From positions 1 through 36,322 of the forward strand of contig JALEMS010000076.1 in the NCBI GenBank assembly GCA_022768185.1: DNA of 36,322 bases, in the 5' to 3' direction. This document shows positions 2,966-20,201 of the stretch, one piece after another. Below the pieces are notes generated by a model that saw only the letters and a program-made list of their open reading frames with translations, searched no databases and was not told the DNA's origin. The stretch is from Clostridiales bacterium (GTDB taxonomy: Bacteria; Bacillota; Clostridia; Oscillospirales; Oscillospiraceae). Each line of letters begins with the position of its first letter. Position 1 is the stretch's first letter. A program made the position numbers and the translations under genes.

Positions 2966-2999
2966 TGCGGGATTGCCACGCAGCTGAAAAGCATAAACA

Positions 3000-3053
3000 A
3001 AAGCGTCTGACGGCGCTGCCCGGATTGACAGGGCAGCGCCGTCAGGCGCTTTT
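3000..3053. terminator. Bidirectional terminator between ricT and the SDR gene
   Basis: A stem of about 22 bp (3000-3020 with 32-52 of the same block) has only one or two G-T pairs. It ends in TTTT on the plus strand and CTTTTGTTTA on the minus strand, and lies between two convergent genes. Confidence 0.9.
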
Positions 3054-3096
3054 GGCGCAGATGGCCGCAGAACGGCCGGCTGGCGCATTTGAAGAA

Positions 3097-10293: not shown

Positions 10294-10322
10294 TTGACAG
10301 TGCGCGGTTTGTGCAATAATAT
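10294..10322 (+). promoter_or_regulatory. Predicted sigma-A promoter for gltX
   Basis: TTGACA (10294-10299), a 17-base spacer and TAATAT (10317-10322), close to consensus, leave a leader of about 90 bases before gltX. Confidence 0.75.
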
Positions 10323-10419
10323 ACCAAAGTGGAGCCGGCACGGGCCGGGACGGGCATCTGCCGCGACCGGCTGCCGGAATTTCCGGCTGCAAACGATTTC
10401 CGGGAGGATCGAAACAGAA

Positions 10420-11889
10420 ATGGATAGGAAGTTTTTTGAGGATATGGAAGCGCGCATCCCCAGGGGCAAGGTGCGCACGCGCTTTGCGCCCAGCCCCACG
10501 GGCTATATGCACGTCGGCAACCTGAGAACGGCATTGTATACCTGGTGCATTGCCCGCCATGCCGGCGGCACCTTCATTCTGCGCATCGAGGACACCGATC
10601 AGAACCGGCTGGTCGAGGGTGCGGTGGACGTGATCTACAAGACCCTGCGCGAATGCGGTCTCGATCACGACGAAGGCCCGGACGTCGGCGGCCCCGTGGC
10701 TCCGTATGTCCAGTCTGAGCGCCGCAATACCTACCTGCCGTATGCGCAGCTGCTCGTCGAGCGCGGCCATGCGTATTACTGCTTCTGTGAGAAGAGCGGG
10801 AGCGAAGAGGACGCCGGCTTTGAGCACATCGAGGATCCCTGCCGCAGCCTGCCGCCCGAGGAGGTGCAGCGCCGCCTCGACGCCGGTGAGCCCTACGTCA
10901 TCCGCCAGAAGATTCCCCGCGAGGGCACGACCACGTTCCATGACGAGATCTTCGGCGACATCACCGCGCCGAACGCCGACCTGGACGATCAGGTGCTCAT
11001 CAAGCGCGACGGCCTGCCGACCTACAACTTTGCCAACGTCATCGACGATCACCTCATGGGCATCACGCACGTTGTGCGCGGCACCGAATATCTTGCCTCC
11101 GCGCCGAAGTATAACCTGCTGTATGAGGGACTGGGCTGGGAGATTCCCCGGTACGTCCACTGCTCGCCGGTCATGCGCGATGCGCACAACAAGATGTCCA
11201 AGCGGCACGGAGATCCGTCCTATGAAGATTTGATCGCTGAGGGCTACCTCACCGAGGCGGTCGTCAACTATGTGGCGCTGCTCGGCTGGTCGCCGAAGGG
11301 CGAACGGGAAATTTTCAGCCTGCCGGAGCTGGCCGAGGCCTTTGACCTGAGCGGTATTTCCAAATCCCCTGCCATTTTTGACAAGGAAAAGCTGACGTAT
11401 TTCAACGCCGAATACATCAAGGCCATGGAGCCGGCGGCCTTTGCCAAGGCGGCGGAGCCGTGGATCCGTCAGGCTGTGAAAAATCCGGCCTACAGCACGG
11501 CTGCCATCGCCGCCATTCTGCAGCAGCGCACCGAACGGCTCTCCGATATCCCGGAGAAGCTGGACTTTTTCGACACGCTGCCGGAATACGACACGGCGTT
11601 GTTCGTCCATAAGAAGTCCAAGAGCACGCTCGAGACCTCCCGGGATATGCTCAGGGCCGCCATCGACACGCTGGAGGCGCTGCCTGAATGGACGGAGACG
11701 ACCGTTCACGACAGCCTCGTCACGCTGGCGGAGGCGCGCGGGGTGAAGAATGCGCTGCTGATGTGGCCGGTGCGCATCGCCGCAGCCGGCAAGCTGGTCA
11801 CGCCCGGCGGTGCAGTCGAAATCTGCGCCATCCTCGGCCGGGAGGAGACGCTGCGCCGTCTGCGCCTCGGACTGGAAAAGCTGAACTGA
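10420..11889 (+). CDS. gltX: Glutamate--tRNA ligase
   Basis: A 489-residue class I synthetase with 'FAPSPTGYMHVGNLRTAL' (HIGH variant, HVGN at 31-34), the 'RIEDTDQNRL' segment and 'KMSKR' at 258-262, all typical of GluRS. It charges tRNA-Glu; in many Firmicutes the enzyme is non-discriminating and also loads tRNA-Gln, which cannot be decided here. The start is the ATG at 10420 after GGGAGGA; the upstream in-frame extension lies in the promoter region. It is monocistronic by appearance, and its 3' side faces a six-hairpin repeat element. Confidence 0.96.
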   Translation: MDRKFFEDMEARIPRGKVRTRFAPSPTGYMHVGNLRTALYTWCIARHAGGTFILRIEDTDQNRLVEGAVDVIYKTLRECGLDHDEGPDVGGPVAPYVQSERRNTYLPYAQLLVERGHAYYCFCEKSGSEEDAGFEHIEDPCRSLPPEEVQRRLDAGEPYVIRQKIPREGTTTFHDEIFGDITAPNADLDDQVLIKRDGLPTYNFANVIDDHLMGITHVVRGTEYLASAPKYNLLYEGLGWEIPRYVHCSPVMRDAHNKMSKRHGDPSYEDLIAEGYLTEAVVNYVALLGWSPKGEREIFSLPELAEAFDLSGISKSPAIFDKEKLTYFNAEYIKAMEPAAFAKAAEPWIRQAVKNPAYSTAAIAAILQQRTERLSDIPEKLDFFDTLPEYDTALFVHKKSKSTLETSRDMLRAAIDTLEALPEWTETTVHDSLVTLAEARGVKNALLMWPVRIAAAGKLVTPGGAVEICAILGREETLRRLRLGLEKLN

Positions 11890-11922: not shown

Positions 11923-11947
11923 AAAAAGACGGTGCGGCCGCACCGTC
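11923..11947 (-). terminator. Palindrome with minus-strand T-run
   Basis: A perfect 20-bp palindrome at 11928-11947 is followed on the minus strand by TTTTT. It could end leftward transcripts from the gene at 12299-12889. On the plus strand it lacks a T-run but could still fold at the 3' end of gltX mRNA. Confidence 0.5.
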
Positions 11948-12028
11948 TGCAGCTGTGCGCGCATCGCCGATCTCATCGACCGTCGGCGTGCTGCAGGGCG
12001 GAAGCGCTCTGACCCAATGCCATAAGGA

Positions 12029-12289
12029 AAGCCCGGATGCAAACGCATCCGGGCTTCAGACTGTCCGAAATGCCTCGCAGAGTTCGCGGCGCGCACGCCG
12101 CGAAGCAAATCCGATCCATTTTCCGCGGCGGCGTGTACGTCGCGGAAAATACTTTGCGCGGAGAGAGTGTGCTTTTGTTCGCTGCAGGCGGACAAAAGCG
12201 CGCGGGTCGGAGCGAAGTCCTTTTGTCAAAGAAGCCCGCAAGGGCTTCTTCTGACAAGCTCAAGCCCGGATGCGTTTGCATCCGGGCTT
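12029..12289. repeat. Six-hairpin palindromic element with inverted 28-bp ends
   Basis: A 261-bp intergenic element is built almost entirely of hairpins: 12029-12056 (12-bp stem, AAAC loop), 12083-12104 (9 bp), 12118-12150 (13 bp), 12171-12199 (12 bp), 12223-12257 (15 bp with one bulged C and a GCAA tetraloop) and 12262-12289 (12 bp, GTTT loop). The last hairpin is the exact reverse complement of the first, so the element has 28-bp terminal inverted repeats. Both strands translate into short open frames with matching ends, an effect of the palindromes and not evidence of a protein. It sits between convergent genes, where REP/BIME or MITE-like elements are usual. No flanking target duplication is obvious. 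Its family is unknown to me. Confidence 0.85.
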
Positions 12290-12298
12290 TCACAGTCT

Positions 12299-12889
12299 TC
12301 AGGGTTCGGAGCGATCGGATGTGCCGTACAGCTGCCTGCCGCAGTTGCGGCAGAAGCGACCGCCGACAGTTTGTGTGCCGCAGCCCGGACAGAATTTGAA
12401 GGGACGCGGCGGCTCGACGGGCTGTGCCGGCTGCAACGGCGTTTGTGCGGCGTCTGCCGGCTGCGGCGCGGCTGCGGGGGCGGGGAAGGGAGGCATTTTG
12501 CCGGGAATACCGTGATAGGTCGAACGGTCAAAGGCGAGAATCGGCATGAAAATGCCCGGGAGGAGCAGCAGACCGAGGCCAAAGCCCGGTTCGCGCCCGA
12601 ACACCTTGGCCAGCTTGAAGGGAGAGCGGATGTGAACATAAAGGTTGGCGATGGGCACGAACAGCAGCAGAAACCACAGCGCGTTGCCCCAGGTGATCTC
12701 AAAATAGGTGCACTGGCTGTAAATGGGGACGATGGCGGCCCAGCCCGTCTGACCGGCCTTGGAATAGAGATTCCAGTTTGCAGTGATCTGGACGATGATG
12801 AAGAACAGCGCAGGGAATACTCTGAGGCATGCGGCGGTTCCGGCGTCGCTTATGTAGTAGGAGAGGTAGTAAAGCGCCAGTGTGATCAT
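12299..12889 (-). CDS. DUF5684-like membrane protein with C-terminal zinc ribbon
   Basis: A 196-residue protein. The first 125 or so residues form four to five hydrophobic segments containing 'GQTGWAAIVPIYSQ', 'WFLLLFVPIANLYVHI' and 'FGREPGFGLGLLLLPGIFMPIL'. This is the pattern of the DUF5684 family, often mislabelled signal peptidase I. A Pro/Ala linker follows, then a zinc ribbon made of two CxxC pairs ('CPGCG' and 'CRNCG'). The function is unknown. The start is the ATG at 12889, after GGAGG; the earlier ATG lies in the promoter and is rejected. Its stop is 10 bases from the six-hairpin element. It is divergent from ypeB. Confidence 0.82.
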   Translation of the reverse strand: MITLALYYLSYYISDAGTAACLRVFPALFFIIVQITANWNLYSKAGQTGWAAIVPIYSQCTYFEITWGNALWFLLLFVPIANLYVHIRSPFKLAKVFGREPGFGLGLLLLPGIFMPILAFDRSTYHGIPGKMPPFPAPAAAPQPADAAQTPLQPAQPVEPPRPFKFCPGCGTQTVGGRFCRNCGRQLYGTSDRSEP

Positions 12890-12963
12890 GGAAAAGCCTC
12901 CGTTCGTGGTGCAGCGGCGCTTTCTGCCTGCGCTTTGAGCAGCCACTCTCATGATTCTTTTTG

Positions 12964-18332: not shown

Positions 18333-20201
18333 ATGAAATTATTTTCGGAAAAGAGACGTCCTTCCCGCGGACAGGATACCAAGGAGCTGCCCCGCCTGAC
18401 GCCGGAAGCCATTGCAAAGGCCGAGCAGAGTGCACGCGAGGCCCGCTCGCGGGCCTCATCCGGCCGCGGCGGCGCGCATGCGGCCCCGTCCCATGCCGCC
18501 CCGCGCACGGCGTCTGCCCGCGCTGCCGTCGGCGTATCCGCTGAGCCGCGGCCGCGCCGCGGCGGACGCATGGCGCTGCTGGTCGTTGTGATCGTACTGG
18601 CGGTGCTGTGCCTTGCATGTGCCGGCCTCGGTATCTGGGCCGGCGGGGGAGAGACCATTCTGCCCGGCGTGAGCGCCGGCGGCGTCAATCTGGGCGGACT
18701 GACGCCCGGTCAGGCCATCGAAAAGCTCAATGCGGCCGGCTGGAACAGCGAGGATGACGCGGCGGTGCACGTTTCGCTGCCGGCGGACGTCAGCTTCACG
18801 GTGACGGCCCGCGAGGCCGGCGTACAGCTGGACGTGGCGGATGTGGTGGTGAAGGCCTATGCCTACGGCCACGACGGCGGCGCATTCAAAAACGGCTTTC
18901 ACTACCTGCGCTGTCTCATCGCCGGCAGAGAGCTGAGCCTGTATGACGCCGACGCGCTTGACCGGGAGCTGATCGCCTCAAAGGTCTCGGCGGCGGCCAG
19001 AGAGGTCGTTTCTGCCATGATGAGCGAATCGCTGACGGTGGATGAGGAATACATCTCCATCGTAAAGGGCGCCGACGGCGTTTCGGTGGATGAACAGAAG
19101 CTCTGCAATGAGGTGGCCGACGCGCTGCTGGCGCACAACTACACCACCATCGACTGCGGCGTCGACGTGGAGACAGGCACAAATCTGGATATCCGGAAGC
19201 TGTACGACACCGTTGCCTGCGAGCCGGAGAACGCCGTGTACGATCCGGAGACCGAAGCGGCCACGGAGCATGTCAACGGCATCGACTTTGACATGGACGA
19301 GGCAAAGCGCCTGTGGGAGGAGGCCGACTACGGCGACGTGGTGCGCATCCCCATCATCGTGACCGAGCCGGAGATCACCACCGAGAAGCTCAATTCCATG
19401 CTGTTTGCCGACTGCCTGGGCCAGAAAAGCACCAGCCTGGCCGGCAGCAGCAGCAATCGTATCAACAACGTCAGGCGTGCGGCTGCTGCCATCAACGGCA
19501 TCGTGCTCAACCCCGGCGACAGCTTTTCCTATAACACGGCCCTCGGCCAGCGCACGACGGCCTCGGGCTATCTGCCTGCCGGCGCGTATTCCGGCGGCGA
19601 GGTGGTGCAGGAGGTCGGCGGCGGCATCTGTCAGGTCAGCTCCACATTGTATTACAGCGCGCTGCTGGCAAATCTCAAAATCACCGACCGGCTGTGCCAC
19701 TATTTCGGCGTCAGCTACGTTCCGCCCGGACTCGATGCCACGGTCAGCTGGCCGTCTCCGGATTTTCGCTTTGTCAACAACCGGGATTACCCAATCCGTA
19801 TTGAGGCCGCCGTGGAAAACGGCAGCGTCTATGTCAAGCTCTGGGGCACCGACGTCGACGGTTCGTATGTCCAGATGACCTACAGCACCTATGAAACCGA
19901 GGGCGGCTTCGGCGCGATCACCTATCGCAATGTTTACAGCGCCGCCGGCGCGCTGCTCAGCTCCAACGTGGAGAGCCGCAGCCTTTATCACTATCACGAG
20001 CAGAAGCCGGAAGAGCCGGAAGAGCCGGAAGAGCCGGAAGAGCCGACCGAACCGACCGAACCGACGGAGCCGACGGAGCCGACGGAGCCGACCGAGCCGA
20101 CCGAACCGACCGAACCGACCGAGCCGACCGAACCCACCGAGCCCACCGAACCCACCGAGCCGGTCGCCCCGCAGCCTGAACCGACGGAGCCTGCGGTCTG
20201 A
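18333..20201 (+). CDS. VanW family protein with peptidoglycan-binding region and Thr-Glu-Pro repeat tail
   Basis: A 622-residue protein. A basic, Ala/Arg-rich cytoplasmic part (1-79) is followed by one membrane helix (about 80-103). A 'GVNLGGLTPGQAIEKLN' segment follows, typical of the PG_binding_4-like region of these proteins. The VanW domain covers about 365-500, with 'INGIVLNPGDSFSYN' and 'GGGICQVSSTLYY'. The C-terminus is an (EEP)4(TEP)13 repeat of a kind seen in wall-spanning stalks. VanW-domain proteins are linked to cell-wall biology and sporulation or vancomycin clusters, but their biochemistry is unknown. There is no van cluster here. It starts 3 bases after hemW. Confidence 0.88.
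   Translation: MKLFSEKRRPSRGQDTKELPRLTPEAIAKAEQSAREARSRASSGRGGAHAAPSHAAPRTASARAAVGVSAEPRPRRGGRMALLVVVIVLAVLCLACAGLGIWAGGGETILPGVSAGGVNLGGLTPGQAIEKLNAAGWNSEDDAAVHVSLPADVSFTVTAREAGVQLDVADVVVKAYAYGHDGGAFKNGFHYLRCLIAGRELSLYDADALDRELIASKVSAAAREVVSAMMSESLTVDEEYISIVKGADGVSVDEQKLCNEVADALLAHNYTTIDCGVDVETGTNLDIRKLYDTVACEPENAVYDPETEAATEHVNGIDFDMDEAKRLWEEADYGDVVRIPIIVTEPEITTEKLNSMLFADCLGQKSTSLAGSSSNRINNVRRAAAAINGIVLNPGDSFSYNTALGQRTTASGYLPAGAYSGGEVVQEVGGGICQVSSTLYYSALLANLKITDRLCHYFGVSYVPPGLDATVSWPSPDFRFVNNRDYPIRIEAAVENGSVYVKLWGTDVDGSYVQMTYSTYETEGGFGAITYRNVYSAAGALLSSNVESRSLYHYHEQKPEEPEEPEEPEEPTEPTEPTEPTEPTEPTEPTEPTEPTEPTEPTEPTEPTEPVAPQPEPTEPAV
20010..20162 (+). repeat. 9-bp tandem repeat coding (EEP)4(TEP)13
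   Basis: Seventeen consecutive 9-bp units at the end of the vanW-family gene: four GAAGAGCCG units, then thirteen units that vary at third positions (ACC/ACG, GAA/GAG, CCG/CCC). The repeat number can be expected to vary between strains through slippage. Confidence 0.95.

Follow-up and report, generated by a model that had tools for sequence, protein, structure and literature searches.

The block of hairpins between gltX and its convergent neighbor very probably arose by transposition: positions 12057 to 12261 are best explained as a MITE with IS1182-type terminal repeats that was inserted in trans at the intrinsic gltX/DUF5684 terminator, duplicating the whole terminator hairpin. Within the window, the whole 36,322-nt stretch of Clostridiales DNA, the element lies on the + strand, is 205 nt long with an AG...CT core at 12058 to 12260, and has ends matching those of its repeat family and of IS1182 elements. 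To its left is gltX (glutamyl-tRNA synthetase, 10294 to 11889, + strand, PF00749 and PF19269), whose annotated start is that of the open reading frame and whose true start may lie further inside. To its right is a DUF5684 gene (12299 to 12952, − strand). Both genes point at the element, in agreement with the convergent arrangement given in the earlier note on this DNA.

Two 28-nt terminator hairpins stand directly outside the element, at 12029 to 12056 and 12262 to 12289. The left copy reads AAGCCCGGATGC-AAAC-GCATCCGGGCTT, with a 12-bp stem and the loop AAAC, while the loop of the right copy is GTTT, flipped relative to the left. The two 28-mers are exact reverse complements, letter for letter as the earlier note had it, with four more stem-loops between them. 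A repeat search extended the inverted arms to 12027 to 12069 and 12249 to 12291, 91% complementary over 43 nt. All of the stems that had been described were found at their positions, and RNA folding of 12010 to 12310 (301 nt) gave −175.4 kcal/mol on the + strand versus −111.8 ± 6.1 for shuffles (z of −10.5), with a z of −9.6 on the − strand; no shuffle reached the native folding energy.

These exact inverted ends had been taken for the termini of the element, a view that did not hold up. They lie outside the repeated unit because other copies have different hairpins at those places; they are read instead as the duplicated target terminator, which forms direct repeats in most copies. For example, a second copy in the same genome (G000:C61:4558-4759) is 89% identical only over positions 49 to 251 of the query, between the outer hairpins. 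Its left side carries a different, perfect terminator ending in TTTTTTCAGAGACTGTC, and a search for a terminator hairpin on its right side found none there.

The MITE itself has terminal repeats of the form CAGNCTGTCRAAAA with four hairpins inside. The left terminal inverted repeat (12058 to 12072, + strand) is AGACTGTCCGAAATG, compared to a family consensus of AGNCTGTCRAAAA, and the right one (12246 to 12260) reads AGCTTGTCAGAAGAA on the − strand. All four internal hairpins are placed on the + strand. The first (12083 to 12104, TTCGCGGC...GCCGCGAA) shows compensatory changes among relatives (helix 2), and the second (12118 to 12150) has an almost invariant apex, GGCGTGTACGTC, and double changes in 8 of 13 pairs (helix 3). 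The third (12155 to 12215) consists of an inner stem at 12171 to 12199 and outer arms with internal loops (helices 4 to 6). The fourth (12223 to 12257) contains the GCAA tetraloop noticed earlier, at 12238 to 12241, and forms where the right end of the MITE pairs with a copy of the terminal repeat located inside the element.

Other inverted or repeated structures also occur in the window. A further terminator-like site on the − strand lies just past the gltX stop (11927 to 11948, AGACGGTGCGGCCGCACCGTCT followed by TTTTCCG) and would stop − strand transcripts reading through the whole element. A 24-bp inverted repeat with a 9-nt spacer at 2998 to 3054 (CAAAAGCGTCTGACGGCGCTGCCC / GGGCAGCGCCGTCAGGCGCTTTTG) is probably a strong bidirectional terminator. 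Positions 19987 to 20171, within a coding region, hold an in-phase array of 9-nt repeats of the GAGCCGACC / GAGCCGGAA type, which if translated would be a Glu-Pro-Thr-rich stretch.

Searches for the hairpin region in its own genome and in Oscillospiraceae, one of the checks proposed in the earlier note, found copies of the core in both. The core is a dispersed repeat of about 200 nt, lacking a transposase gene, found across many Oscillospiraceae. Among 60 relatives, 21 had matches at an E value of 0.01 or below, some of them only short. First-look candidates numbered up to 123 per genome (the maximum being in G042), a pattern scan of named genomes returned at least 120 stretches, and one genome (G032) holds about 20 copies. 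Among the matches listed, carriers include Papillibacter cinnamivorans, Pseudoflavonifractor gallinarum, Flavonifractor sp. An112, Evtepia, Limivicinus, Pelethomonas, and Dysosmobacter, as well as many uncultured Oscillospiraceae and Clostridia and one record labeled Bacilli. The sequence is thus neither single copy nor without homologs, and its stems do carry compensatory changes; the proposal of a non-autonomous mobile element is borne out by multiple copies, homologs, terminal repeats, and insertion with target duplication. Copies L043 to L054 come from G042, a genome of another family in the same order; their right half is different and longer, built of additional large hairpins, and they lack evident terminal repeats. 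They may form a separate subfamily or be composite elements. No description of this MITE was found in the open-access literature searched.

In the interior of the element, a conserved fold emerged from an alignment of 33 diverse copies. The consensus structure has 45 pairs, 25 of them with double changes, and 95.5% of alignment cells are paired. Double-changed cells number 198 versus 63.6 ± 6.1 in shuffles, none of 500 shuffles reached 198, and shifting the pairing partners abolished the covariation signal. The motifs GCCTCGCAGAGTT and GGCGTGTACGTC are almost invariant in this alignment. When G-U pairs were disallowed in the structure prediction, 28 cells proved to be G-U and 9 A-C; this excess mildly favors folding of the + strand as RNA, although the counts come from related sequences that are not independent. 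(A count of 149 G-U versus 15 A-C cells on the + strand RNAalifold structure was discarded as circular and replaced by the G-U-free prediction.) Structured RNA, raised in the earlier note, is a possible reading of this internal part. A stronger form of the idea holds that the interior is primarily a + strand structured RNA, either a 3′ untranslated region element or a small RNA, kept by selection, with mobility either incidental or serving to spread it. The extent of pairing, the excess of double changes, the nearly invariant apical motifs, and the G-U excess all speak for it. Against it, the element is dispensable at a given locus, as empty sites and variable positions show, selection on a DNA palindrome for cruciform formation or transposase binding would also yield compensatory changes, and Rfam at a permissive threshold gave only spurious matches far below gathering scores, while no part of the window reached the gathering score of any family. 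On balance this stronger form is rather unlikely, and it is compatible with the MITE interpretation, not an exclusive alternative to it.

The hairpins flanking the family vary from locus to locus, yet agree across the element. About 50 of the 92 copies in which both ends were found score at least 15 for flank match, which is the 99th percentile when flank partners are shuffled. After deduplication, 56 of 60 full-length copies had a hairpin of at least 8 pairs no more than 6 nt from an end, compared to 32 of 600 random positions. Hairpins were present at both ends in 42 of the 60 and missing from one or both ends in 18, and exact direct repeats of 22 to 40 nt flank 25. Orientation of the flanking copies was judged from their loops alone: in 32 copies with exactly comparable loops, 29 pairs were direct and 3 inverted, and another 14 copies had diverged. 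The three inverted pairs include that of the window copy, so the inverted outer hairpins that first drew attention represent the rarer variant. A reversed short loop between otherwise identical flanking terminators was seen in the window copy (L001), in L161 and L190, and in one insertion sequence (L128, AAGATT versus AATCTT), or about one of ten informative pairs. High inverted-alignment scores, such as those of L170 and L272, were discarded as a sign of inverted copies, because palindromic surroundings inflate them. Likewise set aside was a count of how the genes beside the copies are oriented, since simple ORF calling gave results with too much noise to reveal a bias.

Comparison of filled and empty sites, also proposed in the earlier note, showed one hairpin becoming two. 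The MITE sites compared are those of a different copy, from the genus of G022, since the genus of the window copy is represented by one genome (as is that of the Papillibacter copy L066). G022 and G254 both carry the MITE at the same locus, between two copies of the 31-nt terminator AAAAAAGGAGCGGTCTGACCGCTCCTTTTTT, with the loop altered in one of the two terminator copies in G254. In four relatives (G140, G324, G204, and G328), these flanks enclose a single 31-nt hairpin and no MITE; in three others (G293, G337, and G326) the MITE is likewise absent and the hairpin or flank has diverged. This is direct evidence of an insertion in which the entire hairpin, A and T tracts included, was duplicated. 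An IS1182-type insertion (L127/L328) behaved in the same way, with one 31-nt hairpin at the empty site in G354 versus two in the filled site. A comparison for the insertion sequence at L327 was set aside, its relatives being only about 70% identical.

The empty sites bear directly on a simpler account of the window, in which the outer hairpins are the native terminators of two convergent genes, alike through terminator reuse, and nothing was duplicated here. A closely similar terminator does exist at G000:C26:20630-20658, and the inverted rather than direct loop orientation in the window would fit. This account is nonetheless improbable, given that unrelated terminators pair up across the element in dozens of copies, beyond the 99th percentile of shuffled partners, and that one hairpin becomes two. 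A palindromic element of the REP/BIME type, mobilized by a REP-associated HUH (tyrosine) transposase, shares the intergenic position, palindromes, and high copy number, but is scarcely credible for a MITE with the inverted terminal repeats common to DDE transposons (IS1182) and with long target duplications, since REPs have neither and HUH enzymes are not known to make long target duplications.

Because IS1272 and TnSha1 target stem-loops, an IS1182-family transposase was sought as the partner of the MITE. A match in G011 lies in a 1,718-bp element whose ends, AGTCTGTCAAAGAA and AGTCTGTCGAAAAA, agree with those of the MITE, and a protein search of 300 Oscillospiraceae genomes found more. Three of the proteins examined pass the NCBIfam IS1182 model NF033551 (385 to 401 bits versus a cutoff of 270), and the domains of these IS1182-type enzymes are PF13751 and PF05598. 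Four elements of 1.5 to 1.6 kb (L127, L128, L129, and L131) have MITE-type ends and a duplicated terminator on either side, and the insertion sequence at L324/L327 is also flanked by a duplicated terminator; terminator targets were recorded at L127, L128, L129, L131, and L324. Two further copies (L130 and L133) have unlike hairpins on the left and right. In G333, 13 of 13 IS ends adjoin a terminator hairpin, although these are contig ends and the opposite side is mostly unseen.

The AGNCTGTCRAAAA ends are identical over 14 to 16 bp between the MITE and the IS1182 elements, and similarity is restricted to the terminal 14 to 24 bp. The MITE is therefore not a simple internal deletion of these insertion sequences. 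It was most likely mobilized in trans by IS1182-type transposases. A terminal-repeat pattern search for long elements returned mostly MITEs. The window's own genome, 90.6% complete in 77 contigs, gave neither a PF13751 match nor a protein match to an IS1182 transposase. This absence weighs against the proposed account, as do the copies that lack a hairpin at an end and the insertion sequences with unlike flanking hairpins. That genome does contain two other IS1182-type right ends, each adjoining a terminator hairpin and unattached to this MITE family (L118:2389-2401, i.e., G000:C37:3588-3600, and L119:2444-2456, i.e., G000:C52:24943-24955); they are perhaps other MITEs or IS remnants. Two insertions at a single terminator hairpin are seen at the end of G333:C65 (L315), where the hairpin separates the right end of one IS1182-type element from an end of another. 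A malK-I RNA (RF03069) is found at L328:467-641 and L332:1267-1442, upstream of an ABC transporter ATPase gene whose own terminator was entered by an IS1182 element.

The best-studied relative of the proposed partner is IS1272. In staphylococci, the targets of IS1272 and of the composite TnSha1, both of the IS1182 family, are hairpins without a fixed sequence, several of them confirmed transcription terminators, and these elements remove the stem-loop wholly or partly without target duplication (PMC5678879, PMC4923244). The transposase family and the hairpin or terminator targets of variable sequence are thus the same, whereas the stem-loop is deleted there and the whole hairpin is duplicated here; IS1272 is also autonomous, and the element here is a MITE. 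An IS1272-type insertion, with the stem-loop deleted or replaced, is excluded by the whole-hairpin duplication and the empty sites. Duplication of a whole hairpin appears as the hypothetical "pathway b" in the model of PMC5678879. In the open-access literature searched, such duplication by IS1182 elements was found only in hypothetical form; ISfinder or the subscription literature may list long palindromic direct repeats for other IS1182 members.

Other bacterial MITEs are likewise short, lack a transposase gene, share terminal repeats with insertion sequences, and form many intergenic copies with secondary structure, but their target duplications are a few bases rather than a whole terminator of 24 to 40 bp, and the interior here is a conserved fold rather than an IS remnant (review, PMC10969869). 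REP-targeting insertion sequences (PMC1525189) similarly enter palindromic intergenic targets and spare genes; those are associated with a repeated REP sequence, in contrast to any terminator hairpin, whatever its sequence, here.

In the mechanism we propose, an IS1182-type transposase supplied in trans would bind the CAGNCTGTC ends and recognize its target as a hairpin, cruciform, or exposed single strand, not as a sequence. Strand transfer would then link each 3′ end of the element to one foot of the stem, on opposite strands, and gap repair would copy the whole hairpin (about 24 to 40 bp), leaving a terminator on each side, so that gltX and the convergent DUF5684 gene could each retain one. 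The gene-proximal hairpin would lose part of its T tract upon insertion and the distal copy would retain it; transcripts would therefore tend to read into the element and terminate at the far hairpin. The transcription barrier suggested in the earlier note survives only in the sense that the host terminator now flanks both sides. In the window copy, one loop was probably flipped later within the palindrome, for example by template switching, which would have produced the exact inverted ends. More tentatively, the whole may be a structure-guided system in which terminators are read by shape, the hairpin is duplicated, and termination is spared, with the + strand RNA fold of the MITE functional in transposition or at transcript 3′ ends; this extended version is possible but somewhat doubtful.

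As the empty sites show, an entire stem-loop target can end up duplicated upon insertion of IS1182-type elements; IS1272 does the opposite. Targeting terminators by shape places insertions between genes with a terminator on both sides, and would help explain why copies are so numerous in gut Oscillospiraceae. With its conserved fold, this MITE is a test case for RNA-level selection on a MITE interior. For annotation, terminators that match on either side of a 200-nt block of hairpins mark a transposon scar, not a riboswitch or REP element.
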